Origin: Nitrosospira briensis
Lineage (GTDB): Bacteria > Pseudomonadota > Gammaproteobacteria > Burkholderiales > Nitrosomonadaceae
Direction: 5' to 3'
NCBI RefSeq assembly: GCF_900115125.1
Contig: NZ_FOVJ01000006.1
Coordinates: forward strand, 1-64,000
Length of the DNA: 64,000 nt
Notes under the pieces: generated by a model
The model's database searches: none
What the model was told of the DNA's origin: nothing
What the model saw: the letters and a program-made list of their open reading frames with translations, nothing else
In this document: piece by piece, positions 52,551 to 59,770 of the stretch
How positions within the stretch are numbered: the stretch's first letter is position 1
How the letters are laid out: every line of letters starts with the position of its first letter
Program-made: the position numbers and the translations under genes

Positions 52551-55500
52551 ATGAAAGATAATCCGCGAAGCTCACACCAACCACAGCATATGTGGAAATC
52601 TCCGGCTGCGGCCTTGTTGGTTGTCGTAGTGGCAATATTAAATATGGCGCTCGATGTTCAAGCCGCTGAACTCTGCACGCCCGCGATGGCCATGGTCGTG
52701 TCAGTGCAAGGAGCTGTCGAACTTCGGCGCGTCAAGGAGGTCAGTTGGCAACCAGCGAAACTGAACATTGCCCTTTGCGCTGGCGATACGGTCCGTGTCA
52801 GGGAGCACAGTCGGGCGGCATTGCGCCTCAGCAACGAGAGCACGCTGCGGCTCGATCAGAAGACCGTCCTCACGCTCGCCGCACAAGGTCCGGATAAGGC
52901 TGCACTGGTGGAATTGGTCACAGGCGCCCTCTTCGTCATCACCCGTACACCCAAGCCATTCAGGGTTAAAACACGCCTTGTTACAGCCGATATCGAAGGG
53001 ACCGAATTCTTTATTGGCACCAATCAGAACAGCGCAAGGCTGGTGATCTACGAGGGCACGGTATCCGCCAGCAACGAACAAGGGAGCATCAGTCTGGTCA
53101 GCAATGAAGCAGCTTCTGTTGTCGGAAATCAGTCGCCCCGAAAGGCAGAGATTATCCGTCCTACAGATGCGGTTCAATGGGCCTTGCATTACCCCACCAT
53201 CATCAGTTACCGCCTGGATGAGAAGTTGCCCGATGAAGCGGCTGCACAAACATTGCGCTCCTCTATTGAATTGTACCAACAGGGTAAGCTGCGCGAGGCG
53301 CTGGCTGCGCTGGGTGGCGTACTTGAAAGTGCACATTCTCCCCGCTTCTTGACCTACCGAGCAGGCCTTTTACTCTCAGTCGGGCGGGTGGAGGAAGCAA
53401 GAGCAGATATCGCACAAGCGCTCAAGCTGGAACCCGGCAACAGTGACGCCTACGCGCTGCAAGCAATCATTGCGGTGGTGCAAAACAATAAGGAGCAAGC
53501 ACTAGCCCTGGCGACAAAGGCAGTCGAGCTCGATCAGGAATCCTCCGGTGCTCGGCTGGCGCTATCCTATGCGCAGCAAGCGCACTTCCAGATTGAGGCA
53601 GCACTTGAGAGCGTCCAGAAGGCCGCGGAGCTGGAACCGAAAAATGCACTCATCTGGGCGCGCTTGTCTGAACTGCATATGTCGACTGGTTATCTGGATC
53701 GCGCGCTGGAAGCAGCCCAACGCGCAGTCGAATTGAATCCCAATCTCTCAAAGGTACAAATGGTGCTGGGATTTGCTCATTTGACCCGAATCGATACCGA
53801 AGCAGCCAAAGCGGCTTTCACCAACGCAATCGAACTGGATCAGGCAGATCCCATGCCGAGGCTCGGTATGGGCCTCGCGAAATTACGCGAGGGAGATGTC
53901 GAAGCGGGGCGCATGGAAATGGAGATTGCAGCGGCTCTCGATCCAATGAACTCGCTGATACGAAGCTATCTGGGCAAGGCGTATTTTGAGGAGAAGCGCT
54001 ACAACCTTGCTGAGGCGCAGTTCGATATGGCGAAGGCACTCGATCCCAACGACCCCACGCCCTGGTTTTATGATGCAATCCAGAAGCAGACGCAGAACCG
54101 GCCAGTGGAAGCGCTCTGGGACTTGCAAAAATCCATCGAACTCAACGAGAACCGGGCAGTTTACCGCTCAAAGCTGCTATTGGATCGCGATCAGGCAGCC
54201 CGCGGGTCCAGCTTGGCGCGTATTTACGACAATCTGGGGTTCGAAAAGCGCGCATTCATGGAAACCGCAAAATCCCTAAGCCTTGATCCGGGCAGTCACT
54301 CGTCCCATCGGTTTCTTTCTGATGCCTACCGTAATGTTCCCTGGCACGAAATCGCTCGTGCAAGCGAGTTGTTGCAAGCTCAACTGCTGCAACCGATAAA
54401 CGTCAACCCCGTCCAACCTCATCTTACTGTAGCCGATCTTAATATCATCACAAGTAGCGGACCGGCAGTAGCCGGCTTCAACGAATTCACGCCACTAGTT
54501 GAGCGCAATAAACCTCAACTCGTAGCCTCAGGGATCGTAGGAAACCATGGCACGATAGGGGACGAAGCTGTGCTCTCGGCACTTTATGGCCGCGCTTCAG
54601 TCAGTGTTGGTCAGTTTCATTACAACACTAGCGGCTTTCGTGACAATAACGATCAGAAGCACAACGTATACAACGCCTTCTTCCAGTACGCGGTAACGCC
54701 TAGGTTCAACGTTCAGGCAGAGGTGCGTACCCGCAAAACCGAAAATGGCGACCTGTTGCTTAAGTTCGATCAACCCTTCGACCCTGACGATCGGCGAGAA
54801 TTAACTCAGGACACGGCCCGTGTAGGAGCGCGAGTCTCGTTGTCGCCAAGGCAGGATTTTATTGTTTCAGCTATGTATAACGACCGTAGGACCGACATAT
54901 CTCCTAACCCGAACCGCGTGAATCGAACGAAGGACTCGGGCTATCAAGTTGAAACTCAATATTTGTTCCGAGGCGACCGCGTTAACTTACTTGCCGGGGC
55001 TGGTACTTTTCAGTTTGGGGTTGATGATCAAATACTTCGAAATTCTGGCTTAACCAGCGATATTCATTTTAAAAACTGGCGGAATACTGGTTATTTTTAT
55101 ATGAACTTTAGTCCGATCAAAAACTTAAGCTGGACTCTCGGCTTAGGCTATGACTCCTTAAAAGGTCGAGCAGACTTCGAAGTCAATAAGTTTAATCCCA
55201 AACTTGGCATGCAATGGAATATTACCGATAGTCTGCGCCTCCGGCTGGCATGGTTCGAGACGGTAAAATCATTTTTGATTGCAAATCAGACCATCGAACC
55301 AACTCAAGTGGCGGGTTTTAACCAACTGTTCGATGACGTTAATGGTACTAAAGCTCGGCGCAAGGGGATCGGGCTGGATGCTCGTGTCGCGGCTAACCTG
55401 TACGGCGGCCTTGAGGTATCCGCACGTGATCTTATGGTTCCCCAATTCATCGGCGATGAACCCGCGAGGGAGCAGAAGCAAGAAGAGCGGCTTTACTACG

Positions 55501-55931
55501 CTTACCTCTACTGGGTTCCTCACCCATACTGGGCAATCCGGGGCGAGCCCCGATTTGAGAAATTCATGCGCGCTCCGGCTGAGCTGGGCGTCGCTGACCC
55601 TAATCGGATTGAAACCTTAAGCGCACCAGTAAGTTTTAACTACTTCAATCCATCAGGAATATTTGCTACGTTCACGACGACATATGTCAGGCAAGAGTTG
55701 AGACGAACGGAGTCATCGGTACAGAGAACTGTAGATGATAATTTCGTGCTGCTCGACGCAGTTCTTGGCTATCGCTTTCCTAATCGTAGAGGTATTGTAA
55801 GTCTCGAGGGCAGAAACCTTCTTGATCAGGATTTCTTTTTCAAGAGCACCAATTTTCAATCCAACGAAATTACAGCCCCACGTTTCATCCCAAGTCGAAC
55901 ATTTTTTCTGAGGCTTACATTAAACTTTTAA
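52551..55931 (+). CDS. FecR-TPR-outer-membrane beta-barrel fusion protein
   Basis: An 1126-residue surface protein with an unusual domain order. Residues 14-39 are a signal peptide. A FecR-type domain (about 48-200) has the family core RVKTRLVTADIEGTEFF and VIYEGTVSAS. TPR repeats fill about 235-610 (EAALESVQKAAELEPKNALI, DRALEAAQRAVELNPNLSKV). The rest (about 640-1126) is beta-rich and ends VSLEGRNLLDQDFF and FFLRLTLNF, with the terminal Phe of outer-membrane barrels and a TonB-receptor-like last strand; no plug domain is visible. The last kilobase looks more AT-rich than the rest. GGAGAAG precedes the ATG. A sigma-54 promoter drives it. Function unknown. Confidence 0.85.
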   Translation: MKDNPRSSHQPQHMWKSPAAALLVVVVAILNMALDVQAAELCTPAMAMVVSVQGAVELRRVKEVSWQPAKLNIALCAGDTVRVREHSRAALRLSNESTLRLDQKTVLTLAAQGPDKAALVELVTGALFVITRTPKPFRVKTRLVTADIEGTEFFIGTNQNSARLVIYEGTVSASNEQGSISLVSNEAASVVGNQSPRKAEIIRPTDAVQWALHYPTIISYRLDEKLPDEAAAQTLRSSIELYQQGKLREALAALGGVLESAHSPRFLTYRAGLLLSVGRVEEARADIAQALKLEPGNSDAYALQAIIAVVQNNKEQALALATKAVELDQESSGARLALSYAQQAHFQIEAALESVQKAAELEPKNALIWARLSELHMSTGYLDRALEAAQRAVELNPNLSKVQMVLGFAHLTRIDTEAAKAAFTNAIELDQADPMPRLGMGLAKLREGDVEAGRMEMEIAAALDPMNSLIRSYLGKAYFEEKRYNLAEAQFDMAKALDPNDPTPWFYDAIQKQTQNRPVEALWDLQKSIELNENRAVYRSKLLLDRDQAARGSSLARIYDNLGFEKRAFMETAKSLSLDPGSHSSHRFLSDAYRNVPWHEIARASELLQAQLLQPINVNPVQPHLTVADLNIITSSGPAVAGFNEFTPLVERNKPQLVASGIVGNHGTIGDEAVLSALYGRASVSVGQFHYNTSGFRDNNDQKHNVYNAFFQYAVTPRFNVQAEVRTRKTENGDLLLKFDQPFDPDDRRELTQDTARVGARVSLSPRQDFIVSAMYNDRRTDISPNPNRVNRTKDSGYQVETQYLFRGDRVNLLAGAGTFQFGVDDQILRNSGLTSDIHFKNWRNTGYFYMNFSPIKNLSWTLGLGYDSLKGRADFEVNKFNPKLGMQWNITDSLRLRLAWFETVKSFLIANQTIEPTQVAGFNQLFDDVNGTKARRKGIGLDARVAANLYGGLEVSARDLMVPQFIGDEPAREQKQEERLYYAYLYWVPHPYWAIRGEPRFEKFMRAPAELGVADPNRIETLSAPVSFNYFNPSGIFATFTTTYVRQELRRTESSVQRTVDDNFVLLDAVLGYRFPNRRGIVSLEGRNLLDQDFFFKSTNFQSNEITAPRFIPSRTFFLRLTLNF

Positions 55932-56114
55932 AGGAACCAATCTATGCTGTATATACATCGGACAATTCTAATTAAGTTCAACGGACACTAAGGCTAGTGG
56001 GTTTATTCACTTAAGCGGGATAAGCATAACAATTTGTTGTAGACACACCGAAATTAATATCGCAATTGAGGCATCAGAAACGCCCATTTCCCGCTAAAAC
56101 TGAAGGAGTCTCAA

Positions 56115-56762
56115 ATGAAACCAGATACTAAAACGGTCGGCAAACGGCGGCGCGCAGCCCCGCGGAAAAAGATCGCGGACCTAAGGGCGGAATTGGACGA
56201 TTTCATCCGACGCGTGCCTACTTTATCACAGCCTGAATTAGATCAGGCCAAAGAGAAACTGATACAAAAACTTGCCTACTCTACTAATAGAGTAACGCGC
56301 CCTTCAATAGACGATATACGCAAAAAAATTGATCCCAAGATAATCTATTACGGCATTAACATTCTTCTTGCTGGAGTTCTATTGACGAAGTTATCCCGTG
56401 CTCGTAGTGTCAGTGCTGATTACGGTGCTGGTTACAGGGCTGGTTACAAACCAAGCTGGTGTTCACATTTAACAAGGGAAGGGGCATGCAAACACTATCT
56501 TCATTGCGCTTGGTGTCCCGAGGGTGTTGATCGCAACGGCGACTCCAAACCAGCACATTGTTACAACCCGTCCAGGCCCAAAGAGTGTAAAGATTGCTCA
56601 TCCTGCTGTTCGAGTTTAACGAGGGATGGGGAAGGGATATGCAAGGATCATCCTCCATGCGCTTGGTGTCCTGCGGGTGTTGATGGCCACGGCGACCCCC
56701 TATCGGCCCATTGTTATAACCCATTAAACGTAAGTGAGTGTAACGATTGTTCATCCTGTTAG
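56115..56762 (+). CDS. Membrane protein with two tandem eight-cysteine modules
   Basis: A 215-residue protein of unknown family. A basic N-terminus (GKRRRAAPRKK) and a helical region (DLRAELDDFIRRVPTLSQPE, faintly like ElaB/DUF883) lead to one membrane helix (about 76-92). After a short YGAGYRAGY linker come two modules, residues 116-164 and 165-215, each with eight Cys spaced C-x(8 or 10)-C-x5-C-x2-C-x14-C-x8-C-x2-C-x2-C. CAWCP, DGHGDP/DRNGDS and AHCYNP are shared. The positive-inside rule puts the modules in the periplasm, where four disulfides each, or metal binding, are possible. GAAGGAG precedes the ATG. Confidence 0.75.
   Translation: MKPDTKTVGKRRRAAPRKKIADLRAELDDFIRRVPTLSQPELDQAKEKLIQKLAYSTNRVTRPSIDDIRKKIDPKIIYYGINILLAGVLLTKLSRARSVSADYGAGYRAGYKPSWCSHLTREGACKHYLHCAWCPEGVDRNGDSKPAHCYNPSRPKECKDCSSCCSSLTRDGEGICKDHPPCAWCPAGVDGHGDPLSAHCYNPLNVSECNDCSSC
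56460..56759 (+). repeat. Tandem duplication encoding the Cys modules
   Basis: Two copies of about 147 and 153 bases (56460-56606 and 56607-56759), conserved around the CAWCP codons and at the CSSC end. The spacing of six of the seven Cys intervals is identical, so the copies arose by internal duplication and are under selection for cysteines. Confidence 0.8.
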
Positions 56763-57469
56763 TGAGCTGACTGCTACCGGTGCACTCAAGATCAACGAAG
56801 ACGAGAGCATACTGGTAGCATGGGAATGGCATTAATCGCACTTCAACTCGCTGCATCGAAACGCAGATCGCCGACCCCTAGATGGGGCCAGAAAGGCGAG
56901 AAAAGCCATTTTGGGTTTCTCAGCTACGCAAACGCCGGCAATAACGACTATATCGGGCATACATGCACGTTCGCCATATGCCAATCAAATAAAATCAGCC
57001 TTGGGCTGATGCCAAAGGATAATATCTGATACCCAAGCCTGATTGGGATGCAGTCGCTTCAAGCTTTACATCAAGCAGATTCTCTACTACCGGCAGGCAC
57101 TGCGCACTCACTATTAGGTGGTGCGAATAAATTTTCGTTTCACACCTGCCGTAAGCGCTTACCACGCCCAAGCGCTATACAGGCGACGGTCAGCCTGCAA
57201 GGCATTGTTAGACGGCGCTACCCTCCTAGGACGGGTTATTCGAAGCTGCTGGCTTACCTCAGATTAAGCATTTTGTTTTCTACAACGAGCAATGAAACCG
57301 ACGAGACTAAGGTTAGCTAGCATAAGAGCACAGGTTTCCGCCTTGCCGCATCTTCGCTTTGTGGTATTCGAGGATTCGTATTGTTCGGGCAGACCGCCAC
57401 AGCTCGGTGGTCGGGACCAAAGGAATATTTCAAAATGCCCCTGACTAAAGCAACAGTCGTTTATTAGCT
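56763..57469. other. 700-base intergenic region with an attC-like half site
   Basis: No confident gene. Frames at 56820-57029 (RWGQKGEKSHFGFLSYANAG) and 57048-57320 lack ribosome sites. Near 57197 the sequence GCAAGGCATTGTTAGAC resembles one end of an integron attC site, but I could not find the matching half within 150 bases. The region separates convergent genes and probably contains both their terminators. Confidence 0.35.
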
Positions 57470-59770
57470 CTACTTGTTCGCATTACCGGTAACATGTGTC
57501 AGCTCATGTTTTTTCCGAACCACCTCCCCACGGGCGCGCTTTGATGCTGCTTCCTTAGCGCGTCCCATTCTATCGAGCAGGTCAGCATAGGCTTTCAGGG
57601 CGTTTGCGACATCAGGGTGATCGGGACCCAAACTTTTTTCCCATATTTTTAGTGACCGTTGAAACAACGGCTCGGCCTTGGCGTATTGCTGTTGATTATA
57701 GTAAAGGGCGGCAAGGTTGTTGAGGCTCACGGCCACGTGGGGATGCTCGGGGCCGAGGGCTTTTTCCCAAATCTTCAACGACCGCTGATATAACGGCTCA
57801 GCCTTGCCGTATTGGCCTTGCTCCTGGTAGAGTTCCGCCAGATTGTTGAGGTTGGCTGCCACGTGAGGATGATCCGGGCCCAGGACCTTTTCGAGAATCT
57901 GCAACGAGCGCTGATACAACGGCTCGGCCATGGCGTAATGGCCTTGGGCATAGTGAAGAGTGGCGAGATTGTTGAGGCTTGCCGCCACATCCGGATGCTC
58001 TGGGCCAAAGGCCTTCTCGCGAATCTTGAGCGCGCGCAGATACAAGGGCTCGGCCTTTGCATATTCGCCGAGAGTATAGTAGAACCCAGCCAAATTGCTG
58101 AGGTTTGTCGCCACATGGGGATGGTCCGGGCCCAGTGTTTTTTCAAAAATCTTCAGTGATCCCAGAAACAACGGTTCGGCCTTGACGTATTGGCCCAGGG
58201 CATAATAGACCTTTGCCAGATTGTTGAGCCTTACCGCTACATGGGGATGGTCGGGACCATAGGTTTTTTCCCCGATCTTCAATGAACGCTGATACAAGGG
58301 CTCCGCCTTTGCGTATTCGCCCTGAGTGTAGTAGAGGGTTGCAAGGTTGTTCAGGCAAACGGCAACATCCGGGTGGTCTGGACCGTGAGCCTTTGTCATC
58401 AGTTCCAATGAGCGTCGAAGCAGTGGCTCGGCCTTGGCGTATAGCCCCAGGTCGTGATACAACCCTGCAAGATTGTTCAGGCTTACGCCTACGTCGGGGT
58501 GGTTGGGGCCAAGCGACTTTTCTCGAACGGTAAGGGCTTTTTGATAGAATGCTAGCGCTTCGGAGTAGCGGCCCATTTCATGGTTGATCTTCCCTGCCTT
58601 GTTGATGTAGTTGGCATTCTCCGGTTGAAGCCGTGCGGCTTCCAGATAATATTTCCGTGCCCTGATGTAGTCGATCCTGCTCAACGCCAGTTCGCCCAAC
58701 TGGAATGCGGCTTCTGCGGCACGCTTGGTATCGGTTCCCAACGCTTGCTCGAACAACTGCTCGGCCTTTGCCGTGTCGCCTTTGAAGAGCAGTTCACGTG
58801 CTTGTCCAAGAACCGATTCGGGAACGTCTGGCACTATTTCCTGCAGGCTTTTGTCGGCGCTCGCAAGGATGGCGTTGTATCTTGCCGTGGCTTCTTCAGG
58901 AGACTCCAGATCGGCGCTGGCTTTTTGGATCTTGAGCTCGAGGGCGGCGATCTTTTCCTGGTCGGCCTGCCTTTCCTTCGCAAATTCTTTGCCAAGTTCA
59001 GCGAGCGCTTCTTCCTTGAGCTTGCGGCGCCATTCCTCGAATTCCAGAGGGGACAAACCGATGTTTATATCGCGGCCGGCGATCTGTACGTCGCGGCCGG
59101 CGGCGATGCCTCCACCTGATGCGGTGACAGTCGGGCCCCTGGCTGGAGCAGGTTCCTTATCGGAAAAGTAAGTGTAAAGTGTCCACACTGCGCCAACCAG
59201 GACTGCAATACCGCTACCGATAAACTTCCAGGTGCGTTGGTTCGTTCTGTTACTTATTACGGCCCATGGCCCCTGGGGGGCTGGCGAAGGCATTTCCTTT
59301 TGCGTGGACGTCACCCCCGCCTTTTCTATTGCCTCGATCACGCGGCCTGCATCGTAATCAAACCGGGATTCCGTGATCTCTATCGCGTTTCGGCCTACAA
59401 GCGCGGCGATATCTTCCGGAAGCTCCTCAGGTATTGGAACCTCTGCGCCTCCTATCAACGTAGGGATGATAAGCTTCTTTTGATTGAGCGCTTCCCGTAT
59501 CTCGGTTCTGACGGCGTCCTTTGGGTCATCAAGTCTGCGTTGCCCAGCTACATTCTTGATGTTGACCCAATTTTTGCCGATAACAGCTACCAGGACATTG
59601 CACTGAGCAATCCGATCTTCGATAACCTCTAAAAACACGGCGCCGGGCGCAATGGCGTCCAGATCGCGGAAAACTTGTTCTTTGCCGAAGTGATGGGCCA
59701 GACGATCATATAAGCGCCCAGCAGAAGCAGCGCTGTCGTCCCGCCGATAACTGATGAAGATGCTCGTCAT
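57470..59770 (-). CDS. TIR-domain protein with membrane helix and TPR array
   Basis: A 766-residue protein. Residues 1-145 form a TIR_2-type domain (SIFISYRRDDSAASAGRLYD, VFRDLDAIAPGAVFLEVIED, LVAVIGKNW); E90 in DAVRTEIREAL is at the position of the catalytic Glu of NAD-cleaving TIRs. Then a linker, one membrane helix (181-202), a GGGIAAGRDVQIAGRDINIG motif (219-238) and a helical stretch. Residues 419-712 are seven kinesin-light-chain-type TPR repeats of exactly 42 residues (HPDVAVSLNNLAALYY style). TIR proteins often make or break NAD-derived signals in defence or stress; TPRs would bind a partner. No phage-defence partner gene is adjacent. Confidence 0.9.
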   Translation of the reverse strand: MTSIFISYRRDDSAASAGRLYDRLAHHFGKEQVFRDLDAIAPGAVFLEVIEDRIAQCNVLVAVIGKNWVNIKNVAGQRRLDDPKDAVRTEIREALNQKKLIIPTLIGGAEVPIPEELPEDIAALVGRNAIEITESRFDYDAGRVIEAIEKAGVTSTQKEMPSPAPQGPWAVISNRTNQRTWKFIGSGIAVLVGAVWTLYTYFSDKEPAPARGPTVTASGGGIAAGRDVQIAGRDINIGLSPLEFEEWRRKLKEEALAELGKEFAKERQADQEKIAALELKIQKASADLESPEEATARYNAILASADKSLQEIVPDVPESVLGQARELLFKGDTAKAEQLFEQALGTDTKRAAEAAFQLGELALSRIDYIRARKYYLEAARLQPENANYINKAGKINHEMGRYSEALAFYQKALTVREKSLGPNHPDVGVSLNNLAGLYHDLGLYAKAEPLLRRSLELMTKAHGPDHPDVAVCLNNLATLYYTQGEYAKAEPLYQRSLKIGEKTYGPDHPHVAVRLNNLAKVYYALGQYVKAEPLFLGSLKIFEKTLGPDHPHVATNLSNLAGFYYTLGEYAKAEPLYLRALKIREKAFGPEHPDVAASLNNLATLHYAQGHYAMAEPLYQRSLQILEKVLGPDHPHVAANLNNLAELYQEQGQYGKAEPLYQRSLKIWEKALGPEHPHVAVSLNNLAALYYNQQQYAKAEPLFQRSLKIWEKSLGPDHPDVANALKAYADLLDRMGRAKEAASKRARGEVVRKKHELTHVTGNANK
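57635..58516 (-). repeat. Seven 126-base tandem repeats in the TIR-TPR gene
   Basis: Seven units of 126 bases, each one 42-residue TPR (G-P-D/E-H-P-x-V-A start). They are similar at DNA level, so recombination or slippage could change repeat number. Confidence 0.85.

Follow-up and report, generated by a model that had tools for sequence, protein, structure and literature searches.

The question raised by this locus is what kind of bacterial protein carries, behind a single membrane span, two adjacent modules of eight cysteines each. The gene is located in a 64,000-nucleotide stretch of the Nitrosospira briensis genome, the whole of which is called the window here. Our preferred answer, held tentatively and at somewhat less than even odds, is that the gene encodes a Nitrosospira-specific inner-membrane protein, in which a DUF883 scaffold would carry periplasmic disulfide knobs that bind an envelope partner; we infer this function from the comparisons described below.

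The gene and its N-terminal half

The open reading frame occupies 56115-56762 on the forward strand including the stop codon, exactly where the sequence-only reading had placed it, and encodes a protein of 215 amino acids starting with ATG. A ribosome-binding site region with AAGGAG lies directly upstream (56102-56114, forward strand), and Nitrosospira multiformis Nl12 (NZ_QAOK01000002.1) has a syntenic orthologue in which start, frame and N-terminus agree. Based on these two observations the gene is real. The Nl12 orthologue encodes 149 amino acids and is flanked by the same two neighbours in colinear order. Identity between the two species is 80 % over the first 240 coding bases, with the start codon and a GGAG site kept, and the DNA-level alignment ends near codon 82, within the membrane span. 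An antisense open reading frame at 56410-56856 was rejected as spurious, the sense frame being the one kept in the Nl12 orthologue.

Structure prediction of the full-length protein, which at pLDDT 42 is usable for helices alone, gave helices at residues 18-36 and 39-56 and a single hydrophobic helix at residues 74-93 (56334-56393, forward strand). The hydropathy maximum is found at residues 76-94. At this low confidence the prediction agrees with the helix-rich N-terminus and the one membrane span that had been described from the sequence. Basic residues are present on both sides of the span, and the charge rule is thus ambiguous on the topology. After the span comes a linker that is rich in Gly/Tyr and includes basic residues (residues 94-115, 56394-56459), and residues 1-115 contain no cysteine.

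The sequence-only reading was right about the cysteine module, but it missed the origin of the N-terminal half. Pfam DUF883 (PF05957) matches residues 20-53 with an E value of 4e-4 and a score of 20.6 bits, below the curated cut-off of 25.4, within a DUF883-like helical region of about residues 18-56 (56166-56282, forward strand). When the DUF883 profile was run over the same genome, two proteins scored above the cut-off and the window protein scored 21.5 bits. An above-cut-off DUF883 paralogue (137 amino acids, in L002) is 38 % identical to the window protein over residues 7-73 (E 5e-8), and ends in a hydrophobic segment followed by RR. A relative of this kind is present in most Nitrosospira species. 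Together, the sub-threshold Pfam match and the similarity to the paralogue argue for a DUF883 origin, and we read the N-terminal half as a divergent DUF883 domain, of the ElaB/YqjD type that is tail-anchored in the inner membrane, and the whole protein as derived from DUF883 and extended at its C-terminus.

The window protein has in common with Escherichia coli ElaB, YqjD and YgaM an N-terminal helical region followed by a membrane span. DUF883 proteins are tail-anchored (PMC5525287); the N-terminal part of YqjD binds ribosomes, and ElaB has a protective role in oxidative stress (PMC6389858; see also PMC5525287). In the known members the C-terminal tail serves as the anchor, whereas the window protein continues for 122 residues, with 16 cysteines, past the span. 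Strictly taken it falls outside the family on two counts, as its score lies below the curated value and its span at residues 74-93 is not terminal.

The cysteine modules and their distribution

Module 1 spans residues 116-164 (56460-56606) and module 2 residues 165-215 (56607-56759), both on the forward strand. The cysteines of module 1 are at residues 116, 125, 131, 134, 149, 158, 161 and 164 (spacing 8-5-2-14-8-2-2), and those of module 2 at residues 165, 176, 182, 185, 200, 209, 212 and 215 (spacing 10-5-2-14-8-2-2). These positions, with CAWCP present in each module, bear out the earlier description of two units of about 50 residues with eight cysteines each and a shared spacing. The last 100 codons contain 16 cysteines compared to 3.3 expected from base composition (about 5-fold, P ~2e-7). 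The modules are 75 % identical at the DNA level (110/147) and agree at 32 of 49 aligned residues, and their alignment score of 179 compares to a shuffle mean of 30 ± 6. Judged by this comparison the two modules are a true tandem duplication, and the shared cysteine spacing therefore counts once and not as two independent events. The module-to-module dN/dS is ~0.38 (0.24/0.64), and on this measure each module looks constrained with respect to the other.

PSI domains are cysteine-rich, about 50 residues long and have a CxWC core. The modules share these features, and their C-x5-C-x2-C core with CxWC and eight cysteines per ~50 residues is PSI-like; a faint likeness of the C-x2-C-x-W-C part to eukaryotic PSI-type domains had been pointed out earlier. 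The likeness was not supported by closer comparison. In a search of the genome with the PSI HMM (PF01437) at E<=10, the sole match was elsewhere and the locus was not matched, nor did the isolated modules match PSI in Pfam. A structural model of the module, built from the three-row alignment of the modules, showed no fold match, though it is small for such comparisons. A genuine bacterial PSI-type (plexin-semaphorin-integrin) domain is very improbable.

Structure prediction had been proposed in the sequence-only reading as one way to follow up the module, and it gave a compact unit: the 51-residue model is fairly confident (pLDDT 81.8) and consists of short helices and small hairpins. Foldseek and VIA-align detected no structural relative of it in PDB and BFVD, 51 residues being small for these methods, and this is weak evidence that the fold may be new. 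The module profile gave no match against PDB. A phmmer match (E 1e-4) to the Kelch motif of Keap1 chains in PDB, across a GxDG...CYNP-type stretch, was dismissed as local chance similarity, as the cysteine pattern is not behind the match and there is no Pfam Kelch match.

The claim that no bacterial family with this cysteine signature is known holds for Pfam, NCBIfam, PHROGs and PADLOC: with the whole protein and the modules as queries, only the sub-threshold DUF883 match was obtained and the modules matched nothing. No match was found by tblastn against phages and plasmids, and neither the protein nor the module profile gave a match in IMG/VR. The GTDB contigs gave no confirmed match to the module, and only Nl12 when the alignment of the two orthologues was the query. 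The module profile was also run over three overlapping genome samples, drawn from the order (399), the class (369) and the phylum (398), with two weak matches, L035 and L036. Both were discarded as chance, being partial matches with no tandem cysteine module, and L036 lies within a glutamate-synthase region. Within the genus Nitrosospira the module is present in 2 of 23 genomes. Among all collections searched the C-terminal module appears confined to two Nitrosospira, with no detectable relative elsewhere.

Divergence from the Nl12 orthologue

The Nl12 protein has the N-terminus and a span, followed by a single eight-cysteine module at its C-terminal end, and gave no Pfam match. Tandem doubling of the module is found only in the window genome among the genomes searched. 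The Nl12 spacing is 8-5-2-4-9-7-4, with cysteines shifted compared to the window modules. The first five cysteines and the last one align across all three modules, two are relocated, and the cysteine number is even throughout. This pattern fits disulfides.

It is possible, if not likely, that the modules are instead metal-binding clusters of a zinc-ribbon-like or metallothionein-like type, which would bind or buffer zinc or copper in the cytoplasm or the periplasm. Both window modules have CxxC pairs (C3-x2-C4 and C6-x2-C7-x2-C8), CAWCP-x-G may loosely resemble a zinc knuckle, and copper is needed in large amounts by ammonia oxidisers. However, the C6-x2-C7-x2-C8 triad is missing from the Nl12 module, which has C-x7-C-x4-C in its place, no histidine is conserved across all three modules, and no metal-binding family was matched in Pfam or NCBIfam.

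The rate of change bears on another explanation. Compared to Nl12, dN/dS is ~0.8 for the gene (0.42/0.51) and ~0.10 for both neighbours, and by this comparison the gene evolves fast. Weak constraint would fit this value too, which counts against the preferred explanation. The protein could be a fast-diverging DUF883 duplicate under little constraint, with a cysteine-rich tail that drifts and hardly any function in the cell, if any, and the narrow occurrence of the module within the genus and an unrelated gene filling the same slot in a third species are in line with this. We give this explanation a low probability, similar to that of metal clusters, as the frame, the start, the ribosome-binding site and the eight cysteines are kept in Nl12 at a protein identity of 46 %, and the two modules look constrained by their mutual dN/dS.

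Possible role and the neighbouring genes

In the preferred explanation, that of membrane-anchored disulfide knobs, the N-terminal helices would remain cytoplasmic, and the span would insert as a signal anchor that leaves the C-terminus outside, the arrangement of tail-anchored DUF883 proteins. It is plausible that the modules are located outside the cytoplasm, based on the C-tail-anchor ancestry and on DsbB, which is encoded in the genome. The DsbA/DsbB pathway would oxidise the modules in the periplasm, and each would form a compact knob held by about four disulfides. These knobs would then bind a periplasmic partner or ligand, for which the product of the upstream FecR-TPR-barrel gene is the best candidate; this is the weakest step. 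A knob that changes fast and is doubled in tandem would allow the binding to be tuned or diversified. Other points against this explanation are the DUF883 match below the Pfam cut-off, the absence of a Pfam match for the Nl12 orthologue and the ambiguous charges beside the span. The more far-reaching proposal, that a new disulfide-rich module unrelated to PSI and known folds sits on a stress-type membrane anchor, at a locus where species swap small partners of the barrel protein, appears doubtful, if less so than metal clusters. If the preferred explanation is true, a widespread and poorly understood tail-anchored membrane family gains a periplasmic disulfide-rich head, and a short foldable module is provided for testing. 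The locus may further represent a slot in the genome at which ammonia oxidisers swap the partners of a barrel in the outer membrane. General importance is limited by the narrow, lineage-specific distribution in Nitrosospira.

The cysteine-module gene stands downstream of the barrel gene (52551-55931, forward strand, 1126 amino acids), a possible operon partner, both in the window and in Nl12, a point in favour of the preferred explanation. The gap between the two genes is 183 bp (55932-56114), and no sigma-70-like promoter was found upstream of the cysteine-module gene. These observations count against the preferred explanation, and co-transcription with the barrel gene is only putative.

Four other Nitrosospira examined have a short gene, unrelated to the window gene, ~10-20 bp downstream of the barrel orthologue (L027:263-682, forward strand; L028:3333-3761, L031:3192-3680 and L029:1340-1831, reverse strand). 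All of these encode a few cysteines and some a signal-peptide-like start, and it is possible that the barrel protein has in them its cargo or a co-transcribed partner. The short genes of G020, G015 and G001 are mutually related, that of G017 not clearly so. G020 has the same TIR-TPR neighbour as the window, yet an unrelated gene in the slot, which indicates that the slot itself is re-used. The 183-bp gap in the window opens with a tiny open reading frame directly downstream of the barrel gene, possibly a remnant of a replaced gene, as other species have their short gene there.

The barrel gene encodes a FecR domain, TPR repeats and an outer-membrane-barrel-like C-terminal part in one chain, and its TPR part scored below the cut-off against PrsT (XrtA/PEP-CTERM). 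The convergent gene on the other side (57470-59770, reverse strand) encodes, according to domain matches, a TIR domain together with numerous TPR_12-type repeats and a hydrophobic segment. Its product matches Thoeris TIR models weakly and could be a defence-type signalling protein.
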